Origin: Gemmatimonadota bacterium
GTDB lineage: Bacteria > Gemmatimonadota > Gemmatimonadetes > Gemmatimonadales > GWC2-71-9
DNA: 64,000 nt
Direction: 5' to 3'
NCBI GenBank assembly: GCA_025358055.1
Contig: JANYKV010000066.1
Span: 1 to 64,000 of the forward strand
The notes under the pieces are model-generated. The model was not told the origin of the DNA. It worked only from the letters and a program-made list of their open reading frames with translations, and ran no database searches. Every line of letters begins with the position of its first letter. Positions within the stretch are counted from its first letter, which is position 1. Positions 15,115-17,446 of the stretch are shown in pieces. The translations under genes and the position numbers were made by a program.

Positions 15115-15148
15115 AAAACCCCCTCGCCGCCTGCAGGCGGCGAGGGGG
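15115..15148 (-). terminator. Intrinsic terminator of the sigma-factor gene
   Basis: 15119-15148 is a perfect 15-bp inverted repeat centred on TGCA. Read on the minus strand it is followed by TTTTCGTT. It lies 26 bp downstream of the sigma-factor stop and upstream of glcD, so it separates the two units. Confidence 0.9.
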
Positions 15149-16068: not shown

Positions 16069-16167
16069 ACGACCTCAAAGAGGAGATGAGTTGGGGCTGG
16101 GAACGAAAGGCGGGCCGCACTCCGAAGAGTGTGAGGCGCCGCCCGGTGGTGTCAGAGAATTGGATAC

Positions 16168-16196
16168 AATATAGGATTCATACAGTGAGCGGTCAA
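16168..16196 (-). promoter_or_regulatory. Sigma-70-type promoter for the sigma-factor gene
   Basis: On the minus strand TTGACC (16191-16196) is followed after 17 nt by TATATT (16168-16173). Spacing is ideal. Transcription would start about 95 nt upstream of the ATG at 16068. Confidence 0.7.
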
Positions 16197-16363
16197 GAAA
16201 AAATGAAATCAACATCACAAATCATTGCAAAATAAGACGCTAGAGATTTTGTCTACTTCCTCCACAGTGCCGTTATGAACAAATTGACGATAAAACCTAT
16301 AACTTATTGTCAATTATACATATAATATTCAACAGCAGATCCTGACCAAGTGGATAATTCTGT
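16176..16363. other. AT-rich intergenic regulatory region upstream of the sigma-factor gene
   Basis: This stretch between aroB and the sigma gene is strikingly AT-rich compared with the GC-rich surroundings. It contains the promoter -35 box, a 12-bp inverted repeat (16282-16315) and a 14-bp direct repeat with one mismatch (16246-16259 and 16357-16370, shared core TGTCTACTTC). No ORF or tRNA is visible. It may be a promoter/UP-element region or encode a leader RNA. Confidence 0.6.
16282..16315. promoter_or_regulatory. Inverted repeat, possible operator
   Basis: Arms AATTGACGATAA (16282-16293) and TTATTGTCAATT (16304-16315) are complementary at 11 of 12 positions with one G-T pair, and are separated by 10 nt. 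Centre-to-centre spacing fits a dimeric regulator. The site is about 110 bp upstream of the mapped -10. Confidence 0.5.
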
Positions 16364-17446
16364 CTACTTCGGCCCATCGACCGATCGCGAGAGTGCTCGC
16401 ATGATTATTTCGTCCCCGACCCCCACTGACCAAGCTCCTTGCACTCGCGCCATCTCTCCGATGCGGCGAGGGAGCGCGAAATGGATGACGCCGTCGCGAT
16501 TTTTTTTGTCGCCCCACATCGCCGCCAGGAGTGAGCCCGGTTGGCACCGACCCGGCAGCGCCGTAGGCAAGCCAAGGGCAGCGAGAAGCGTGCGGAGCTC
16601 AGTGGCAGTGCCGGCCTCCGCAATGCCGAGGTACTCCGCCAGCCGCGCCTCGGTGACCAGGCCGATGCTGAGCGCCTCGCCGTGGGGAGTCCGGTAGCCG
16701 CTCGTCGTCTCAATCGCGTGGGCAATGGTGTGTCCTGCGTTCAAAGTCGCTCGCACGCCCTCCTCATGCTCATCGGCCCCGACAATCCGGGCCTTGATCC
16801 GAACGCTCCCTCGGATGAGGCGGGCCAGCGTCGTCTCATCCCGCTGAACGATGGCGGCCACGTTTCGTCGGATCATGGCATAGTAGCGCACGTCGGCGAC
16901 GAGGCCGTGCTTCACGACCTCCGCGAGCCCAGATCGATAAACCCGTTCGGGAAGCGTTCGGAGCACGGCTGGGTCGACCAATACCGCGGCGGGAGGGTGG
17001 AACGCACCGAGCAGGTTCTTCCCCCTCGTGGTGTTGATTCCCACCTTGCCGCCGACAGAGGCATCGACCATGGCCAGGAGCGTGGTCGGCACCTGTACCA
17101 CCGGGACACCCCGGAGAAACGTTGCGGCCACGAATCCCCCGAGGTCGCCGATCACACCGCCTCCCACCGTCACCAGGGCGGAATGACGGTCGAACCCGAG
17201 CGCAAGCAATCGATCGGAGAGCCTCATCCACTGCCGGTCGGTCTTCGATCGTTCGCCTGGTGGTACCAGTAGCAAGGTCGCTCGGATCATCGGGTGCACC
17301 TGACGATGCACCGTGCGATCGGTGATCATCGCGAGTCGTCGTCCGGGGAGGAGGCGCTCGATCGTGGGTCCCAATTCCCGCAGCAAGCCCCGCCGTATGA
17401 TGACGGGATAACTGCCAGATCGGTGCCGCACCGTCAGGGTGGACAT
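16364..17446 (-). CDS. aroB: 3-dehydroquinate synthase AroB
   Basis: 360 aa from ATG 17446. The NAD-binding stretch TVGGGVIGDLGGFVAATFLRG, the active-site run VPTTLLAMVDASVGGKVGIN and zinc-ligand segments EVVKHG and NAGHTIAHAIE are all present. It converts DAHP to 3-dehydroquinate, step two of the shikimate pathway. Length is typical. It starts 4 bp after the stop of the cobalamin adenosyltransferase gene and is probably co-transcribed with it. Confidence 0.96.
   Translation of the reverse strand: MSTLTVRHRSGSYPVIIRRGLLRELGPTIERLLPGRRLAMITDRTVHRQVHPMIRATLLLVPPGERSKTDRQWMRLSDRLLALGFDRHSALVTVGGGVIGDLGGFVAATFLRGVPVVQVPTTLLAMVDASVGGKVGINTTRGKNLLGAFHPPAAVLVDPAVLRTLPERVYRSGLAEVVKHGLVADVRYYAMIRRNVAAIVQRDETTLARLIRGSVRIKARIVGADEHEEGVRATLNAGHTIAHAIETTSGYRTPHGEALSIGLVTEARLAEYLGIAEAGTATELRTLLAALGLPTALPGRCQPGSLLAAMWGDKKNRDGVIHFALPRRIGEMARVQGAWSVGVGDEIIMRALSRSVDGPK

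Follow-up and report, generated by a model that had tools for sequence, protein, structure and literature searches.

A conserved two-site block ahead of a sigma-70 family gene of Gemmatimonadota: a candidate DnaA-bound promoter-operator

The AT-rich region preceding a sigma-70 family gene in a 64,000-nucleotide stretch of a Gemmatimonadota genome (the whole stretch analysed, hereafter the window) is most probably the promoter-operator of that gene, with DnaA as the foremost, tentatively held candidate for the protein that binds it. Three parts of the region are kept among relatives: the promoter, a site just before its -35 element (site II) and a further site higher up (site I). The proposal of a promoter with an operator, one of several in a preliminary description of this DNA, is borne out by a promoter and two upstream elements held at fixed spacing in most of the family; as a promoter-operator with two sites, the block is an ordinary kind of element of uncommonly well kept design. 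The comparison covered 30 relatives, 80 named loci and 102 family genomes, and the families f1 (that of the window), f2 and f3 are labels of this analysis. In the open-access literature searched, queries on the oriC, DnaA or sigma promoters of Gemmatimonadota returned unrelated matches only, none of them on this element.

The gap that holds these parts stands out in base composition (Table 1). The GC content of positions 16176-16363 is 0.335, against a mean of 0.636 (sd 0.041) over all 188-bp stretches of the window, and 16105-16445 is the sole part of the 64 kb where any 188-bp stretch has a GC content of 0.45 or less, which confirms the AT-rich stretch reported earlier. The -35/-10 pair, formerly called ideal, is a good promoter rather than an ideal one: TTGACC-N17-TATATT has its -10 element outside 16176-16363, and no perfect TTGACA/TATAAT pair was found. 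Among 69 unique blocks from relatives, the -10 element reads TATATT in 59, and the -35 element, as assigned by an automatic rule, is of the TTGAC type in 41 and TTTGCA in 27.

Table 1. Coordinates of the sigma gene, its neighbour and the elements between them in the window
Feature	Position	Strand	Remarks
Sigma-70 family gene, 297 aa	15175..16068	-	gene served by the promoter; regions 2, 3 and 4
Predicted 5' leader of sigma mRNA	16069..16161	-	putative start near 16161, placed from the -10 element; runs to the ATG
Candidate ribosome site GAGG	16073-16076	-	from sequence
Promoter	-35 TTGACC 16196-16191; 17-bp spacer; -10 TATATT 16173-16168	-	best pair, 10/12
Site II, 22 bp, AATGATTTGTGATGTTGATTTC	16205..16226	-	DnaA-box-like part degenerate in the window (AAATCAACA on the other strand)
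Site I, GTAGACAAA	16248..16256	-	43 bp above GTTGA of site II; within direct-repeat copy 16246-16259
Three degenerate DnaA-box-like 9-mers	16273..16357		TTATGAACA 16273 (+), TATTCAACA 16326 (+), TTATCCACT 16349 (-); one mismatch each
Inverted repeat	arms 16282-16293 and 16304-16315	.	12-nt arms, 11/12 paired, 10-nt spacer
Direct repeat	16246-16259 and 16357-16370		13/14 identical; second copy extends into the last aroB codons
Intergenic gap, 295 bp	between aroB (-) and the sigma-70 gene (-)		holds the AT-rich stretch
aroB, 3-dehydroquinate synthase	16364..17446	-	TIGR01357, 354 bits (cut-off 305); upstream neighbour

Both repeats described earlier are present, and conservation among relatives, the test set for them, was found for one copy of the direct repeat and not for the inverted repeat. 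An inverted repeat as good arose in 9 of 500 dinucleotide shuffles, and among the 29 other intergenic regions one of such kind was found, in L023 of family f2, at a different place and with a different sequence; the repeat is therefore not conserved but private to the window genome, and its absence from relatives ruled it out as an operator. The direct repeat was equalled in 1 of 300 shuffles; its copy at 16246-16259 encloses the conserved site I, and no conservation was seen among relatives for the copy at 16357-16370.

The protein encoded downstream gives matches above cut-off to Pfam Sigma70_r2, r3 and r4 and a weak match to region 1.2, and region 1.1 was not found in its 297 residues. It falls short of all the RpoD and RpoS equivalog cut-offs listed (RpoD about 194-195 bits, with 354 needed), as does every sigma factor of 13 genomes for RpoD, and a paralog of the same genome (G000:C139) scores higher as RpoD, at 272 against 195 bits; we therefore take the window protein for an alternative, primary-like sigma factor. 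Counting the window genome, 39 of 41 genomes encode an ortholog (67-82% identity), and in 29 of 30 loci the sigma gene has aroB no more than 550 bp upstream. The closest relatives with a name are uncultured Gemmatimonadetes/Gemmatimonadales genomes. As a separate observation, the best of the sigma factors in those 13 genomes (G000-G008 and G025-G028) reached 272 of the 354 bits of the RpoD C-terminal cut-off, while 9 of 14 control genomes have a sigma factor that passes it, so the principal sigma factor of Gemmatimonadota seems divergent. Right after the gene in the window, a strong terminator-like hairpin (15119-15148, minus strand; 13 pairs, 12 of them G-C) is followed by TTTT.

Across the 69 unique blocks, which were chosen for the core, site II has the consensus AAnnATTTGTGATGTKGAnAAC, with TTTGTGATG as the most constant part. 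Site II ends about 8-9 bp before the -35 element, a T-rich tract lies ahead of the latter, and in 68 of the 69 blocks the -35 element, by the automatic rule, starts 22-24 bases past the first G of GTGATG. Site I, with consensus GTGGACAAA, shares the strand of site II and lies 43-44 bp above its GTKGA: when sequences with at least 7 of 9 matches to GTGGACAAA are counted, the distance is 43 bp in 44 blocks and 44 bp in 14 (58 of 69 in all), and shuffled segments gave at most two such sequences at any one distance. Since 43-44 bp corresponds to about four helical turns, the two sites should lie on the same face of the DNA. One protein would bind both of them cooperatively and, sitting at about -45 to -95, would act mainly as an activator touching RNA polymerase; we infer activation over repression from this position alone. 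Two further ideas about the block were dropped on inspection by eye: an RNA stem formed between ACAAA (site I) and TTTGT (site II), as site I varies without compensation, and a small open frame in the core (ATGTGG...), as its frame is not conserved.

The pattern GTGATGT[GT]GA occurs in 25 of the 30 intergenic regions, and a separate pattern search recovered a 26th (L029); the four regions without it all belong to family f2. Within 500 bp upstream of the sigma match, it was found in 59 of 80 named loci, one of the other 21 (L226) offering just 36 bp of upstream sequence. Furthermore, a sequence-only model of the block, built from the alignment of 25 sequences, matched 79 of 102 family genomes, with a single match in 76, and 64 of 151 genomes of the order, of which six belong to f3 and none to f2; the f3 matches in G026, G030 and G032 lay outside the training set, and that of the window (G000:C131:16166-16260) is a training sequence. 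For 30 genomes both coordinates were available; in every one of them the block precedes the start of the matched sigma gene by 44-148 bp on the same strand, and 25 of the 30 supplied training sequences. The model found no match in 23 of the 102 family genomes, including the ten listed of genus g48, and neither the pattern search of the regions nor the model search of the order detected the element in f2. A search of 41 genomes for TTTGTGATGTKGA gave 26 occurrences, of which 22 lie at the sigma promoter, and a single one for the reversed pattern; no promoter context shared by the other copies (G000, G018, G019, G023) was seen. Whatever protein binds it, a single-copy promoter element that most of a family retains offers a bait for the regulator.

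A sister clade of four loci (L161-L164), whose sigma proteins are 83-86% identical, has GTGATG replaced and carries GCCTAAC repeats. The GTnGA pair survives at its 43-bp distance in three of the four loci and as a 6-of-9 version in the other one, and because the clade mostly keeps this pair and loses GTGATG, the comparison suggests that the pair is the constant part. There are three or four GCCTAAC copies at the sigma promoter, with spacings of 24 and 21 in all four loci; in 4/4, GTTAGGC copies are also present near the aroB end, some 170-200 bp higher, and in 3/4 past the sigma gene. These repeats are possibly a new operator that has replaced GTGATG.

DnaA boxes take the form TTWTNCACA, or TTGTCCACA in GC-rich genomes. 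Read on the opposite strand, TGTKGAnAA of site II is a DnaA-box-like 9-mer, and its third base, which is variable, reads T, A or G and never C in 55 of 55 blocks less than 80% alike. DnaA is proposed because this 9-mer varies as DnaA boxes do and because further boxes occur in the region: above site II, 25 regions hold 60 box-like 9-mers, site I among them, that depart from the box at one position at most (shuffle expectation 7.5, sd 2.6, maximum 15 in 200 shuffles), and four exact boxes against 0.5 in shuffles. Box orientation is ordered: 29 forward boxes and 2 reverse ones lie more than 100 bp up, whereas 4 forward and 118 reverse ones lie at site II or no further than 40 bp from the core, a count that includes site II and is thus partly built in. 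The dnaA promoter has an exact box, TT[ATG]TCCACA, in 26 of 30 relatives and in the window genome, and therefore indicates the box that the DnaA of this lineage should read. At the sigma promoter, boxes are exact or one mismatch away in many relatives and degenerate in the window, where the trio of 9-mers of Table 1 is the densest such cluster of the 64 kb.

The identity of the bound protein as DnaA is less certain than the cooperative binding and activation proposed for it, and if it holds, sigma synthesis would be tied to the amount or the nucleotide state of the replication initiator. Against DnaA stand the two mismatches of site II in the window, the 64 kb of which hold no exact box; the extension of the constant TTTGTGATG beyond the DnaA box; site I, which has no last box base (consensus TTTGTCCAC, then mostly T or C); the loss of GTGATG in the sister clade; and the family genomes and family f2 that have no match. 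Alternatively, a regulator dedicated to the sigma gene could bind AAnnATTTGTGATGTKGA together with GTGGACAAA, the likeness to DnaA boxes being incidental, and we regard such a regulator as nearly as likely as DnaA. The conserved core reaches past the box, the window retains it despite a degenerate box, and TTTGTGATGTKGA is nearly unique in each genome; however, a regulator of this kind leaves unexplained both the other upstream box-like 9-mers with their order and the sister clade, which keeps the GTnGA pair and loses GTGATG. DnaA remains our preferred candidate. A stronger form of the DnaA proposal, in which facing box arrays ending in a phase-locked promoter pair would let an origin-like DnaA complex switch the sigma gene throughout one Gemmatimonadales family, seems to us unlikely; were it true, an alternative sigma factor found order-wide would have its level set by the replication initiator itself.

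We consider it improbable that the locus is a datA-like reservoir or inactivation site for DnaA placed by chance ahead of the sigma gene, any effect on the latter being secondary. In its favour are the boxes that face each other, the dnaA gene lying hundreds of kilobases away in two relatives (471 kb in G017, 378 kb in G083), and the six boxes within 300 bp at the sigma locus of G017: in a sample of 1.99 Mb taken from three relatives (100 stretches, part of them chosen, not all random), that density recurred just at a dif-like site of G031, and elsewhere there were three boxes at most. However, titration does not need a fixed spacing to the -35 element, dnaA is not at a constant distance (73 kb in G116), and exact boxes are few, with none in the window, where the cluster is degenerate. 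Less probable still is the earlier suggestion, based on the AT-rich stretch and the inverted repeat, of a small RNA gene, UP element or nucleoid-protein site. The T-rich tract before the -35 element would suit an UP element, but the conserved core is sequence-specific (GTGATGTKGA) and not an A/T tract, so an UP element is not the main feature; the inverted repeat is not conserved. A small RNA gene is unsupported as well: Rfam gave no match for the region, the conserved block sits ahead of the -35 element, and excess structure is absent both from the whole intergenic strand of the window (folding z-score -0.24) and from the leader (mean -0.10 over 10 orthologs). These 10 come from the 30 loci, the rest having no core or blocks merged with identical ones of named loci; their upstream block has a mildly negative mean z-score of -0.93. 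In the sigma leaders of seven relatives (L010, L014, L018, L019, L021, L022, L024), we observed CGGTCATTTTGGCGGG or near variants directly after the promoter, often preceded by a short complementary stretch; the window does not have CGGTCATTTTGGCGGG.

A chromosomal oriC lies at the minimum of GC skew, usually with dnaA or parS nearby. The sigma locus shares with origins its AT-richness and clustered, oppositely facing boxes, no such cluster was seen near dnaA in G017, and a small local flip of GC skew, from about -0.1 to +0.04, occurs at the sigma locus of that genome (L088, G017:C1:535001-555000, at about 542.5-544 kb). Nevertheless, denser skew sampling together with the positions of parS and dnaA led us to reject an origin there, which we judge refuted for G017: the cumulative skew minimum is at about 1.00-1.02 Mb, dnaA at 1,015 kb and the exact parS sites at 1,068.6 kb, all far from the sigma locus at 544 kb. 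The skew of G031 also switches near dnaA; that of G019 gave no clear signal, and its dnaA, parS and sigma gene are far apart. The dif-like site of G017 is on a different contig from the sigma locus.

The six-box place at 1.93 Mb of G031 proved to be a dif-like site and a different element. This site, TGCGYATAA-N6-TTATGTNAA with at most one mismatch, was found in 10 of 21 genomes searched (L249-L258; for example G017:C3:139449-139472 and G031:C1:1930287-1930310), with dapF nearby in 10/10. A DnaA-box-like 9-mer, TTNTCCACA with at most one mismatch, lies exactly +41 or +42 from the start of this site in 10/10, the background rate for such a 9-mer being 0.00037 per site and strand; a fixed accessory site next to dif would be unusual. 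Apart from this, a second DnaA-like open reading frame (G000:C87:3832-5694, with similar frames in many relatives) has two tandem matches to the AAA+ part of DnaA and seemingly no DNA-binding domain, as its matches to the DnaA model end by about position 345.

If DnaA binds the block, replication control would be coupled to a sigma factor present in 39 of 41 genomes of a phylum with little-studied gene regulation, and the arrangement can be set beside known DnaA targets. Like a chromosomal oriC, the sigma locus is AT-rich with boxes clustered in two orientations, but in G017 it lies away from the skew minimum, dnaA and parS. The dnaA promoters of the same bacteria are alike in carrying a conserved box, TTTTCCACA in 26 of 30 relatives; those promoters have one box directly behind the -35 element, whereas the sigma promoter has a pair before it and the extra TTTGTGATG. 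The datA locus of E. coli is marked by an IHF site and stimulates the hydrolysis of DnaA-ATP. Both datA and DARS are likewise non-coding clusters of DnaA-box-like sites away from the origin; in contrast, the sites at the sigma locus are tied to a promoter at fixed spacing, and their distance to dnaA is variable. The closest parallel in kind of gene is E. coli rpoH, a sigma gene whose promoter is reported to be bound and repressed by DnaA (PMC8203912; PMC12371093, citing Wang and Kaguni 1989). Both cases have DnaA-box-like sites at the promoter of a sigma-70 family gene; the window protein is primary-like and not RpoH, and the putative DnaA sites described here lie upstream of the -35 element at fixed spacing, which suggests activation, unlike rpoH.
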